Source: a bacterium (GTDB lineage Bacteria; DRYD01). From it: a stretch of 33,254 bases of DNA. The position numbers and the translations under genes were made by a program. The DNA lies in assembly GCA_030549815.1 (NCBI GenBank), contig JAUQQQ010000014.1, positions 1 to 33,254 on the forward strand, read 5' to 3'. The notes under the pieces are model-generated. The model was not told the DNA's origin. It searched no databases and was given only the letters and a program-made list of their open reading frames with translations. Shown one piece after another: positions 21,528 through 26,037 of the stretch. How positions within the stretch are numbered: position 1 is the first letter of the stretch; every line of letters starts with the position of its first letter.

Positions 21528-22331
21528 ATGAAAATATTTTCTCTTATTGAGCGAATAAAGAGTGATTCTCGATTCTGTAAAAAAGAAAGGATAACTTTAA
21601 TAGATGATTTTGAAACTTTCAAAACTTTTATTAAATTACAGGCATATAAAAAGTTTCCCTTACAAAGGATCATATTAGTTGAAAAATTTAAAGATAAATT
21701 TGAAAAAGAATTTGCAAATATGGAGGGAGTTTCTAAAACAAAGATTGATATAGTAGATGAGGAAAAATTAAGGAAAGTTTTGAAAATTGATAATCCATCC
21801 ATTTGTGCTTTGATAAATATTAAGCAAGATTTTTTTGATTTGGAAAATTTTTTTAGTGGTGGAAGATTTTGTGTAGTTTTGGATTCTATTCAGAATCCTT
21901 GGAACATGGGTGGTATTTTCAGAACTAACTCTGCTTTTTCTATCTTCGATGTTATCGTTTTAAATAACTCAGTATTCCCTTTTAGTCCAAGGGTTATAAG
22001 AGCTTCTAAAGGATTTGTATTTGAACAGAATATAAGAATGTTAAATAATGTTAGGGATTATCTTGATGAAAAATGTATTTCCCTTATCTTTGAGAACAAA
22101 AAAGATTCATTGGATATAAGAGATAAGAAAATTGGTGAAAAAATAATGAATAGTAATGTTATGTTGGTTTTTGGTAATGAAGAATATGGAGTGGTTAGTA
22201 AGGAAATTTTCAAGAATTATATTAGCGTAAAGATAGTTACAAAGATAGATAGTTTGAATGTATTTTCTGCTCATTCTATAGCATGTTTTTACTTAACTAA
22301 TTTGATATCTTCCAATGACAAGCCATCGTAA
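21528..22331 (+). CDS. SpoU/TrmH-type RNA 2'-O-ribose methyltransferase (second in window)
   Basis: A 267-residue SPOUT methyltransferase with all motifs: DSIQNPWNMGGIFRTNSAF (motif 1), VMLVFGNEEYGV (motif 2) and SLNVFSAHSIACF (motif 3). The first 100 residues form a substrate-binding domain of low similarity to the standard one. It is clearly different from the methyltransferase at 219-956 and probably modifies another tRNA or rRNA position. It begins immediately after the UPF0173 stop. The target cannot be told from sequence. Confidence 0.88.
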   Translation: MKIFSLIERIKSDSRFCKKERITLIDDFETFKTFIKLQAYKKFPLQRIILVEKFKDKFEKEFANMEGVSKTKIDIVDEEKLRKVLKIDNPSICALINIKQDFFDLENFFSGGRFCVVLDSIQNPWNMGGIFRTNSAFSIFDVIVLNNSVFPFSPRVIRASKGFVFEQNIRMLNNVRDYLDEKCISLIFENKKDSLDIRDKKIGEKIMNSNVMLVFGNEEYGVVSKEIFKNYISVKIVTKIDSLNVFSAHSIACFYLTNLISSNDKPS

Positions 22332-22603
22332 CTGAGGAATGAATTGTTTTCACAAAATCTAAGTTTGTGTAATTATAAAAATACAACTGAACGTTAACAA
22401 TTATCAGTTTTCTGACGTAATAGATATCTTTCAAGTAAGAACTTTGAAAAACATAAAGGTCAATAGCAAATGTAAAACAGATACTATCAGGATTGCAACG
22501 TGTGTGGGAAATGATTTTCTAACACTCACTTGACGGATTATTTTTTAAGATTAGGGAGTTTCTCTATTTTTGACCAAATATAATAATGGGAGGGTGGTTA
22601 AGT
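22332..22603. other. Intergenic stretch without recognisable gene
   Basis: About 270 bases with short frames only and no family-like coding. A TATAAT at 22579-22584 lies just before the GGGAGGG ribosome binding site of the GNAT gene and could be its -10 box, which would leave a very short leader. A TTGACG at 22530-22535 is too far from it to be the -35. I saw no terminator hairpin or RNA gene that I could defend. Confidence 0.4.
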
Positions 22604-23161
22604 ATGTTAATCGTGAATAGGAAAACTATTTATTCTAAGGACAATTTCACCTGAAACTTAGTTAAATTCGTAGAAATCGAGGATAGTCAAGATTTCTACG
22701 AATTTATAAATAAAATGGTTAATTTATATGAACAAGCTTATAAGACGATGGATGATTATCATTACAAGGATCACGATGATGTTGTTGATTATATTAAATG
22801 GTTATTTGAACACAATAGAGATTCTTCATTGATAATCTTAGCTATAAAGGATCAAAGATTAATAGGATTTATCGCAGGTGATACTTACTATTACGACAAA
22901 GATTTAGAAGAAAATGTAATGAATATTCATGAATTGGTCGTTGATCCAGAATATAGAGGAATAGGTATAGGTACGCATCTGATATATGAATTTATAAAAA
23001 GAGCAAAGGAAAAAAATAAAGAAAAAGGTAAAAAAGTAAGTCAGGTTATACTCTGGGTTGGTAAAGAAAATGAAAAAGCACAAAAGTTATACACTAACCT
23101 GGGATTTTCTTCTTGTAAAAGAAGTGGTAAATGGATAAAAATGAAAATGGGTATCCTTTAA
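22604..23161 (+). CDS. GNAT family N-acetyltransferase with in-frame UGA at codon 17
   Basis: From an ATG at 22604, with GGGAGGG 10 bases upstream, the frame reads 16 codons (MLIVNRKTIYSKDNFT), then TGA (22652-22654), then stays open for 168 codons. The downstream part is a GNAT acetyltransferase with NIHELVVDPEYRGIGIGTHLIYEF (acetyl-CoA-binding motif A) and KLYTNLGFSSCKR near the end. The segment between the UGA and the next ATG (22715) encodes LVKFVEIEDSQDFYEFINK, which looks like the first strand and helix of the GNAT fold. A start at 22715 (148 residues) would therefore lack them. So the real protein spans the UGA (185 residues if read through) or the gene is broken. A perfect 16-bp hairpin begins 9 bases after the UGA. 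Substrate unknown. Confidence 0.7.
22663..22706 (+). repeat. Perfect 16-bp inverted repeat (stem-loop) just after the UGA
   Basis: TAAATTCGTAGAAATC (22663-22678) and GATTTCTACGAATTTA (22691-22706) are exact reverse complements around a 12-base loop GAGGATAGTCAA. No U-run follows, so it is not a normal terminator. It lies inside the acetyltransferase reading frame, 9 to 52 bases after the in-frame UGA, with the loop starting 25 bases after it. Confidence 0.9.
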
Positions 23162-23291
23162 TAGATGTTTTTAAATAATATAGATGTTTTTGGGAGTATA
23201 TTGAAGTTTTTAAAATGAGAAAGAAGTTTATATAAAATGTGTCTATACCAATCCGGATGCCGAGGATTATTGTTTTAAATGCAGTTCTTCT

Positions 23292-23756
23292 TTGCCTAAA
23301 AGATCTTATGCTATTATTTGCCCTGAAACAAAGATTACTAAAAATTATGATACGATAAAACTAAAGGTAGAGCAATTGTTAGCCTATGAAATATCTGTTG
23401 ATGAATATCTCGAGGTCTTAGATAATATTTATTCAAAGCTAGAAGAAACAGCAAATACAGTATCCAGTATGGAAATTCCGGAAGACCTTATGCCTTATTT
23501 TAAAGAACAAATAGAGATAGGCTTAACAGGTATTGATATGTTTCTGCAAGCTATAAATGAGTTAAGAGTTTTGGCTGAATTAGTGAAAGAGTTGGATGAA
23601 ACAAAATCTGAGGAAGTACGACAAAATTTACTCCAAAAAATAAAAAAGATAAAAGAGCAAGGTTTAGGTTTAGCTGCAGAAGCTATTGAACGTCTTAACA
23701 TCGCATCTAACATGGCAATCAAAAATATGATTAAGTGGAAAGCAAAAGAAAATTAA
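23292..23756 (+). CDS. Zinc-ribbon paralogue, upstream copy, lacking a normal start (possibly decaying)
   Basis: 154 residues if started at TTG 23292. The body is a helical domain closely similar to that of the gene at 23859 (KNYDTIKLKVEQLL, YSKLEETANTVSSMEIPEDL), including a 47-base stretch of identical DNA (23460-23506). Upstream of the TTG the frame continues with a recognisable zinc-ribbon remnant, VYIKC...NPDAEDYCFKC, back to about 23214. The codon aligning with the paralogue's GTG start is GAG (23217-23219) and the first ribbon cysteine is tyrosine. An out-of-frame ATG at 23215 gives only MRKKFI. So either a ribbon-less protein is made from the TTG, which has no good ribosome binding site, or the copy is becoming a pseudogene. 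Confidence 0.55.
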   Translation: MPKRSYAIICPETKITKNYDTIKLKVEQLLAYEISVDEYLEVLDNIYSKLEETANTVSSMEIPEDLMPYFKEQIEIGLTGIDMFLQAINELRVLAELVKELDETKSEEVRQNLLQKIKKIKEQGLGLAAEAIERLNIASNMAIKNMIKWKAKEN

Positions 23757-23858
23757 TAAGGTTTAATTACATAGAGAATATAGAGTATTAGAAGGGATAT
23801 TTTTTTTAAAGTAGAATTTTAAAATATAGAAAAGTATTTTTCTTAAGAGGTTTCAAAA

Positions 23859-24416
23859 GTGAGCAGAATTTGTATAAGGTGTGGTCATACTAATCCAGAT
23901 ACAGAAAATTATTGTGTGAAATGTGGTGCTACTTTGCCTAGAATTTCACAGGCTGTTGCTCGCCCGGCCAGAGTGAAAGTTACTAAAAACTATGACACTA
24001 TAAAACTAAAAGTAGAGCAATTATTGTCCTATGAAATATCTGGTGATGAATATCTTAATGTTTTGGATAATATATACTCAAAGGTGGAGGAAGCTGCGAA
24101 TACCGTATCCAGTATGGAAATTCCGGAAGACCTTATGCCTTATTTTAAAGAGCAAATGGAAATAGGCTTAACTGGTATTGATATGTTTTTGCAAGCTATA
24201 AATGAATTAAGGGTTTTACCAGAATTACTCGAAGAATTGGATAACGCAGAATCTGATGAGGTCAGGGAAAATTTACTCCAAGAAATAGAAAAGATAAAAG
24301 ATCAAGGACTAAGTTTAGCAGCAGAGGCTACTGAACATCTTAATATCGCACTTGATATGGCAATTGAGAATATGTCTAAGTGGAAAGAAGAAGAAACCGG
24401 CGGATTCTATGTATAA
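23859..24416 (+). CDS. Zinc-ribbon protein with helical domain, intact paralogue
   Basis: A 185-residue cytoplasmic protein starting with GTG behind AAGAGG. The N-terminus is a zinc ribbon, CIRCGHTNPDTENYCVKCG, with four cysteines in two CxxC pairs. A short linker (about 33-46) leads to an acidic, all-helical domain (KLKVEQLLSYEISGDEYLNV onwards) of about 130 residues with coiled-coil character. I do not recognise the helical family; a role as an adaptor or regulator is possible. It follows a diverged tandem copy after about 100 AT-rich bases, and the two share blocks of near-identical sequence, pointing to duplication with some gene conversion. Confidence 0.75.
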   Translation: MSRICIRCGHTNPDTENYCVKCGATLPRISQAVARPARVKVTKNYDTIKLKVEQLLSYEISGDEYLNVLDNIYSKVEEAANTVSSMEIPEDLMPYFKEQMEIGLTGIDMFLQAINELRVLPELLEELDNAESDEVRENLLQEIEKIKDQGLSLAAEATEHLNIALDMAIENMSKWKEEETGGFYV

Positions 24417-24455
24417 ATAATCCATGTCAATATGGCTGTCAATATGACTTTGGAA

Positions 24456-24485
24456 AAATCCTGGAGTGATAGAAGCCAAGGATTT
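24456..24485 (+). terminator. Possible weak terminator hairpin after the zinc-ribbon gene
   Basis: AAATCCT (24456-24462) pairs with AGGATTT (24479-24485), extended by GG/CC across one bulged base. The downstream sequence is only partly T-rich, so termination efficiency is doubtful. Confidence 0.3.
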
Positions 24486-24528
24486 CTAAAATTGTTTCTT
24501 TGTTATTGATACAAAAAAGAAGGTATTA

Positions 24529-26037
24529 ATGTATTCTAAAACCTACACTTTTTTTGTTAATCCTTCATTAATAACAGTTGAATGTCAGGTATCGAGAGGG
24601 TTACCATCTTTTAACATCATAGGTTTGCCATCAAAATCTATACAGGAATCAAAGGATAGGATTAAAAGCGCACTTAGCTTTATTGGAATAGATTTACCAC
24701 CTAAAAAAATAACGATTAATCTTAACCCTGTCGATATATCCAAGCAAGGGAATCATTTTGACCTGCCAATGGCCGTATCTTTACTAAAAGCATTAAACCT
24801 TATCAAGATTAAGGATAACATAATTTTCGCAGGAGAATTGTCATTAAATGCTCAAATCTTACCCGTAAGGTCTGTGATAAACTACCTTATGGAAATAAAT
24901 GGATCAGAATACGAATTGGTTTTACCTTCAGGTAATAAACAAGAGGTTTCTGTTCTTAAAAATTATATAAATTTTAATGTTAAATTTATATCTCATTTAT
25001 CTGAATTGTTCGATTTTGATAAAATAAAAGTATTTTGTGATTTTGATATTTTTTATGAAGGGGAAAGTAAAGATGTTAATGAATTAATAGATTTGTTTGA
25101 GAGTGTAAGGGGGCAGGAATTTGCTAAGTATGCTTTATTGGTTTCCTCTATTGGTAAACATAATGTGTTGATGGTAGGTCCTCCGGGAACTGGTAAATCT
25201 ATCCTTGCTAAATCTTCTCTTTGTTTATACCCTAAACCAAGTGAAGAGGAATTTATTGAGATTGCAAGGATATACAATTTGGCAGGTTACGAGTATGATT
25301 ACTGGATTAAGTTTAAGAATGTTAGGCCGTTTAGGAGTCCACACCATACTTCTTCATATGCTTCAGTTGTGGGTGGGTCCAGAGATGCTAAAGTTGGGGA
25401 AATCACGCTTGCACACAAGGGGATATTGTTCTTGGATGAATTTCCTGAATTTCATAGAAACGTGTTGGAGGCTCTTAGGGAACCCTTGGAAAACAAAAGA
25501 ATAACTATATCGAGGGCAGAGATAAAAGTTGAATACCCTGCGGATTTTGTCTTGATTTCTGCAATGAACCCTTGCCCTTGTGGATATTACCAAACTAATG
25601 TAAAAGAATGCACTTGCACTTCTTTTCAAATCTCAAAATATTGGTCTAAAATTTCAGGACCTTTGTTAGATAGAATAGATATATTTATCGAAGTTAGTAA
25701 CGTTGATTTTCAACAAGTAATATCAAATAGAAAATCCGTTATTAATTACTATAAAGAATTGTTTCTTAATGCTATTAATACAAAAGAGCAAAGGAAACAA
25801 GAGAAAGCAAATTCTGAATTAAGTATAGAGGAAATTAATCAATATTGTTTGACTTTATTAACGAATGAAGCAAAGGAAATAGTAGAAAAGATTTATAATC
25901 AACAGAGGTTGTCTATAAGAAAATTTCATAAGATTCTTAAAGTTGCAAGAACAATTGCAGATATAAAGCAAAGCATTAATATAGATAAAGAATCTCTTCT
26001 TAATGCTTATAAACTAACGATTAATAGGTATGTTTGA
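24529..26037 (+). CDS. comM: ComM/YifB family Mg-chelatase-like AAA+ ATPase
   Basis: A 502-residue protein of the YifB/ComM family. The N-terminal Lon-protease-like domain contains GLPSFNIIGLP and NLNPVDISKQGNHFDLPMA. The AAA+ domain has Walker A GPPGTGKS (G217-S224), FRSPHHTSS, Walker B ILFLDEFPEF, and NPCPCGYY...CTC, the cysteine motif typical of the family, then SGPLLDRIDI. In naturally transformable bacteria ComM is a hexameric helicase that promotes branch migration when incoming DNA is integrated. An AGAAGG ribosome binding site lies before the ATG. It is monocistronic or the last gene in its direction; a convergent gene follows. The family is certain. The transformation role here is inferred, with nearby pilin genes as mild support. 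Confidence 0.95.
   Translation: MYSKTYTFFVNPSLITVECQVSRGLPSFNIIGLPSKSIQESKDRIKSALSFIGIDLPPKKITINLNPVDISKQGNHFDLPMAVSLLKALNLIKIKDNIIFAGELSLNAQILPVRSVINYLMEINGSEYELVLPSGNKQEVSVLKNYINFNVKFISHLSELFDFDKIKVFCDFDIFYEGESKDVNELIDLFESVRGQEFAKYALLVSSIGKHNVLMVGPPGTGKSILAKSSLCLYPKPSEEEFIEIARIYNLAGYEYDYWIKFKNVRPFRSPHHTSSYASVVGGSRDAKVGEITLAHKGILFLDEFPEFHRNVLEALREPLENKRITISRAEIKVEYPADFVLISAMNPCPCGYYQTNVKECTCTSFQISKYWSKISGPLLDRIDIFIEVSNVDFQQVISNRKSVINYYKELFLNAINTKEQRKQEKANSELSIEEINQYCLTLLTNEAKEIVEKIYNQQRLSIRKFHKILKVARTIADIKQSINIDKESLLNAYKLTINRYV

Follow-up and report, generated by a model that had tools for sequence, protein, structure and literature searches.

An in-frame UGA shared by four species ahead of a GNAT acetyltransferase domain, a probable case of bacterial stop codon readthrough

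In-frame stop codons located at the same position among orthologous bacterial genes have been described before, with dN/dS values below 1 downstream of the stop, and have been attributed to readthrough, by which expression is reduced (Belinky et al. 2021, PMC7918605). Most of these cases are short-lived, of the age of polymorphisms and frequently reversed (PMC7918605). The gene presented here, which encodes a GNAT acetyltransferase, likewise carries a stop codon at the same position among its orthologs, but its UGA spans two genera whose synonymous sites are strongly diverged, and it is found at codon 17 to 21, directly after a conserved leader. For cellular bacterial genes, little is documented on in-frame stops that persist over long times and are passed with an unchanged genetic code and with neither selenocysteine nor pyrrolysine. 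The GNAT case, which offers four orthologs, a short leader and a well-delimited position of the stop, bears on whether bacteria use readthrough within one frame as a lasting gene switch.

A second system with clear likeness is the early, autoregulatory UGA of prfB, the gene for RF2. In both, a short first frame ends in UGA, where RF2 stands against an alternative way of decoding. The ribosome escapes this stop in prfB by a +1 frameshift, however, whereas in the GNAT gene the frame does not change across the UGA. According to a review from 2016, no RF2 gene with in-frame readthrough is known, and the frameshift is not replaced by such readthrough in any known organism (PMC5009743). Regulated redefinition of a UGA within one frame, if true for the GNAT gene, would be the counterpart of the prfB switch that was described as unknown. 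In termination-arrest leaders of the TnaC type, RF2 is blocked at a UGA by a conserved nascent peptide. The GNAT leader peptide is conserved in sequence, and is at most a candidate for such an arrest.

The gene and its in-frame UGA

The window analyzed here is a stretch of 33,254 nucleotides (contig JAUQQQ010000014.1), and the genome it belongs to is referred to as G000. A preliminary description, made from the sequence of the window, had noted an ATG with a ribosome binding site that opens a frame, meets a TGA and continues into a GNAT gene, and this layout was confirmed (Table 1). Behind the Shine-Dalgarno-like GGGAGGGTGG, the frame from the ATG reads MLIVNRKTIYSKDNFT*NLVKFVEIEDSQDF..., remains open to 23158 and closes with TAA at 23159-23161. 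No canonical start codon is present in the post-UGA frame between the UGA and an ATG at 22715, and the translated stretch 22715-23158 matched the GNAT domain PF00583 with an E-value of 7.6e-19. Gene finders would probably start the enzyme at this internal ATG, by which the first strand and helix are lost, and genes of this kind may be wrongly annotated as truncated.

Table 1. Positions of the leader, the UGA, the enzyme frame and the inverted repeat in the window
Feature	Position	Strand	Basis
Leader Shine-Dalgarno-like GGGAGGGTGG	22588..22597	+	Read from sequence
Conserved 16-codon leader MLIVNRKTIYSKDNFT, GNAT frame	22604..22651	+	Purifying selection; alignment
In-frame UGA, codon 17, A at +4	22652..22654	+	Sequence; conserved in G002, G003 and G004
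Post-UGA GNAT acetyltransferase frame, including TAA stop	22655..23161	+	PF00583
Inverted repeat of 16 bp, 5' arm, species-specific	22663..22678	+	Not a full stem in orthologs
Inverted repeat of 16 bp, 3' arm, species-specific	22691..22706	+	Not a full stem in orthologs

The read-through protein, modeled with Trp at the UGA, was predicted by AlphaFold2 with a pLDDT of 85.9. Strand 1 (residues 20-24) and helix 1 (residues 28-46) of the predicted fold both lie after the UGA, in agreement with the earlier reading of the post-UGA residues as the strand and helix that open the fold. Residues 1-13 are predicted to be disordered (pLDDT < 50), so that the leader is no evident part of the fold. The closest solved structure, in both fold and sequence, is PH1933 (PDB 1wwz; profile E-value 1.9e-22, TM-score 0.75-0.87), although its alignment begins only at query residue 32. 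An RGIGIG motif was found in the alignment of the read-through protein, which thus shows both the acetyl-CoA binding motif and the fold of a GNAT, and from its sequence the gene product can be firmly assigned as a GNAT acetyltransferase.

Conservation of the UGA and selection on the flanking frames

A contig search with one genome per species identified a relative in the metagenome-assembled genome SKW172 (G003), with 65% identity over residues 1-167 after the UGA, and whole-genome searches yielded two further members, in G002 and G004. G002 and G003 are congeners of G000, while G004 belongs to another genus of the same family. The DNA at the site reads MLIVSRKTLYSKDNFT-TGA-NLIKFFEIEDNQDF in SKW172 and MLMVNKTTLYYKDNYKDKFR-TGA-NFIKFLLIEDKTDF in G004, and the Shine-Dalgarno position is occupied by GGGAAGGTGG in G003 and G002, and by GGGAGAGGTGAT in G004. 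A UGA is found at the equivalent site in all four species from two genera (n = 4 sequences, 3 of them from one genus). It is preceded by a leader of 16-20 residues (16 codons; 20 in the genus of G004) with the pattern MLxVxxxTxYxKDN..F-UGA-N[LF][IV]KF, and its immediate flanks, F[TR]-UGA-N[LF][IV]KF, are conserved in all four.

A profile built from the four read-through proteins and searched against 386 genomes detected GNAT relatives in 13 of these (E <= 1e-12). A single internal TGA was found in exactly the four genomes mentioned above, while the nine other significant relatives had no stop and matched only from profile position 23 or beyond. No additional UGA-bearing members were present among the 386 genomes or in viral contigs, and the profile had no match in the two family genomes G001 (71% complete) and G005 (87% complete). 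Every homolog that has the UGA column has a UGA in it, and the remaining relatives begin downstream of the column; those from outside the family carry neither leader nor UGA, and in most of them the sequence starts a few residues ahead of strand 1. The retention in four species places the UGA far beyond chance, and the leader and UGA together are a family-specific addition ahead of a complete GNAT. The preliminary description had proposed homologs as a check on both the UGA and a hairpin that follows it: the former proved to be conserved, the latter did not.

Selection was measured by Nei-Gojobori counts between G000 and each of the other species. Synonymous sites were heavily diverged in these comparisons (pS 0.59-0.94). 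For leader codons 2-16, pN/pS was 0.10-0.12 against the congeners and 0.23 against G004; for codons 18-37, these values were 0.29-0.37 and 0.45, respectively, and for the remaining codons of the enzyme, pN/pS was about 0.3. These ratios show purifying selection on the leader as well as on the enzyme, with the leader conserved at least as strongly as the enzyme. As the leader is conserved yet probably unfolded, a role during translation is suggested. In G004, no in-frame ATG, GTG or TTG occurs from the UGA until codon 136, so that an internal canonical start cannot yield the enzyme there. Taken together, the synonymous divergence, the peptides kept on both sides, and the lack of a start in G004 strongly argue that the UGA is passed, and we consider it very probable that translation does so. 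Two of the features by which a readthrough gene is recognized, the same stop at an orthologous site and purifying selection on the frame on both sides of it, are found here.

Proposed readthrough and the competing explanations

In the mechanism that we propose, translation would start at the leader ATG, behind its strong Shine-Dalgarno sequence, and the majority of ribosomes would stop at the UGA, releasing the short leader peptide. A fraction would instead decode the UGA by a near-cognate tRNA, most likely tRNA-Trp(CCA), to give the full GNAT. The UGA could then attenuate GNAT synthesis, either to a constant degree or in response to RF2 or charged tRNA-Trp, and the conserved leader peptide may help to slow termination. 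We infer readthrough, the insertion of Trp, the low yield, and the slowing of termination by the leader alike. A conserved leaky or programmed readthrough of the UGA, most likely as Trp, that limits or regulates GNAT synthesis is in our view the probable explanation of this locus. Its regulated form, in which the nascent leader slows RF2 at the early UGA and readthrough by ordinary tRNA-Trp, and with it enzyme output, reports on RF2 activity or charged tRNA-Trp, is proposed tentatively, as a possibility that we would not favor at present.

The 44 tRNA genes of the genome, all accounted for, include a single tRNA-Trp, with anticodon CCA. In the six family genomes (G000-G005), this tRNA has the anticodon stem GUGGA/UCCAU, with a G27.U43 wobble as its top pair, and A9 and G24 in their standard state (numbering our own). 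The same pair is G-C in G322 and C-G in G027. Opening of the top anticodon-stem pair of tRNA-Trp in Escherichia coli led to more reading of UGA (PMC13092985), and wild-type UGA readthrough in a Bacillus subtilis reporter was 6% (PMC7918605). The family resembles the case of UGA decoding by a tRNA-Trp(CCA) with a weakened anticodon stem (PMC13092985) in that its only tRNA-Trp is of the CCA type and has a weak G.U at 27-43, but differs in that the wobble remains a pair and is not open, and in that UGA does not generally stand for Trp in this family. Because of this weak pair, the E. coli data and the readthrough in B. subtilis, Trp is the likeliest residue at the UGA, giving ...NFTWNLVKF...; the homologs show no sense codon at this position. 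The A at +4 is no rarity, as it follows 49% of ordinary TGA stops, and the immediate context of the UGA is therefore not special.

No early in-frame UGA or shift site was seen in prfB of G000 and G002-G005, for which reason prfB autoregulation was rejected as part of the GNAT case. The lack of this frameshift site in the RF2 genes of the family is of note in itself, as 87% of bacterial RF2 genes are reported to have one.

Alternatively, the UGA could close a regulatory leader peptide, and a separate initiation event, lacking a canonical in-frame start, would produce the enzyme, either through reinitiation at the NUG that overlaps the UGA (N-UGA) and a subsequent +1 slip, or from a non-AUG codon. 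An AAGGA that precedes the NUG by 9 nt in three of the species, the strong conservation of the leader peptide, and the start of relatives outside the family near the point of the UGA are all in line with this, and the shifted sequences MKL-VKF, MKL-IKF and MKF-IKF (NUG-AAA-YUU plus one extra base) resemble, by our reading, a natural GNAT start. However, the four species have CUG, CUG, UUG and AUG as the NUG, and a start there is thus not conserved; the -1 frame runs into a stop after 4-11 codons, which makes a second unusual event, the +1 slip, necessary. Nor is an in-frame non-AUG start shared, the third codon being GUU here and AUA in the others. Readthrough is the simpler explanation, since it takes one event rather than two, and we regard a fresh start of translation as unlikely.

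The UGA might also be ambiguous throughout the family, a stop that is weakly read as Trp through misreading by tRNA-Trp, in which case the UGA in the GNAT gene would be tolerated and have no regulatory role. The family-wide G27.U43 wobble fits this explanation, as do two more in-frame UGAs in the genome. When 1.507 Mb of the genome were scanned for coding potential, three TGAs turned out to be flanked by coding-like sequence on either side, including that of the GNAT gene. One of the others lies in a gene for an M48-type peptidase (G000 C3:46818-46820, minus strand), at a position occupied by Gly in G002 and Asn in G004, and is by this comparison a genome-specific nonsense change or a sequence error. 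The other lies in a pilin-like gene (G000 C9:48735-48737), in the context ANPG-TGA-NGETF; its sole relative (G005) has Tyr, which marks the position as aromatic, and Trp would fit there. As neither UGA is conserved in relatives, both were rejected as fellow members, and the UGA of the GNAT gene is the only conserved one among the three candidates. A further screen covered 0.63 Mb of G002 (part of that genome, with alignments judged by our own reading); in it, the GNAT gene alone had a TGA aligned to a TGA in the same frame that combined a high coding score with a convincing alignment before and after the stop. Other TGAs conserved with G002 were found at gene ends or just ahead of gene starts.

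Usage across the genome also speaks against an ambiguous UGA: TGA is the stop codon of 27% of the long genes (275 of 1,005), versus 2,930 UGG codons. Moreover, a UGA that is only tolerated should revert over such divergence, and in-frame stops in bacteria reportedly do not last long (PMC7918605). We therefore consider a family-wide ambiguity of UGA improbable. General reassignment of UGA to Trp, or a suppressor tRNA, was rejected altogether, based on these TGA stops, the presence of RF2 in the genome, and the absence of a tRNA with anticodon UCA among the 44 tRNAs; the earlier statement that UGA is not generally reassigned holds genome-wide.

A nonsense mutation, a dying gene or an assembly error had initially been rated at least as likely as recoding, and in-frame stops are indeed common artefacts in assemblies, of which the M48 and pilin-like cases may be examples, but for the GNAT gene this rating was overturned by the orthologs that keep the UGA: with this UGA recurring in four species from two genera, each of them assembled separately, and purifying selection on both sides, an error or fresh nonsense mutation was excluded as an explanation, and a defective gene is very improbable.

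Selenocysteine and the downstream hairpin

In the window species, the GNAT gene shares with bacterial selenoprotein genes an in-frame UGA and a strong hairpin close downstream, which could be taken for a SECIS element, but it differs from them in that the selenocysteine machinery is absent, the hairpin is unconserved, and no Cys or redox motif lies beside the UGA, and insertion of selenocysteine is hardly credible. The search of the genome for selA, selB and selC that had been suggested at the outset was extended to six relatives (G000-G006 in all) and found none of them. For selA there was no match; the selB model gave only matches below the cut-off, of the sizes of EF-Tu and other translation GTPases; and the tRNA-Sec model matched only tRNA-Ser and tRNA-Leu in the loci that were read. 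The distant genome G027, used as a positive control, scored above the cut-off with all three models, so that the search would have detected selenocysteine genes. Of the initial proposal of selenocysteine insertion or programmed readthrough, the second half is borne out by the UGA and its flanks, conserved across two genera, while the first half was ruled out by the missing selA, selB and tRNA-Sec. The remark that no CxxU-type redox motif is nearby was correct.

The inverted repeat itself is as first described: it is exact, with 16 bp and a 12-nt loop, and starts 9 bases after the UGA. It is the sole perfect inverted repeat of at least 16 bp (loop 3-20 nt) in 1.507 Mb of the genome, in which only two reach 14 bp. 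The full 16-bp stem was found in the window species and in none of the orthologs in G002, G003 and G004, where the folding z-scores of this stretch are -0.3, -1.0 and +1.2, versus -5.2 in the window species. The top six pairs of the stem (counting G-U) persist in G002 and G003. In the orthologs, 7 of the 16 stem pairs depart only by unpaired cells, and covariation is at the level of shuffled alignments. As it is not conserved, the hairpin cannot account for the shared UGA, and the idea that it is a conserved recoding signal, put forward in the preliminary description, was rejected, given that the orthologs retain the UGA without the 16-bp stem. It may be a species-specific stimulator or a product of chance. 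Template switching, which would leave a local burst of changes, was considered as the origin of the repeat. Within the final 10 bases of the 3' arm, 5-7 positions differ from each ortholog, but G003 and G004 also differ from one another at 5 of these 10, so that this pattern is not distinctive.

Two further observations concern the surroundings of the gene. Right after the GNAT stop, ATAGATGTTTTT occurs twice (window 23161-23191), at 23161 and 23180, 19 nt apart. In addition, the order of genes encoding an SpoU-type RNA methyltransferase, the GNAT, a zinc-ribbon protein and a YifB/ComM ATPase is common to the window (21528-26037) and SKW172.
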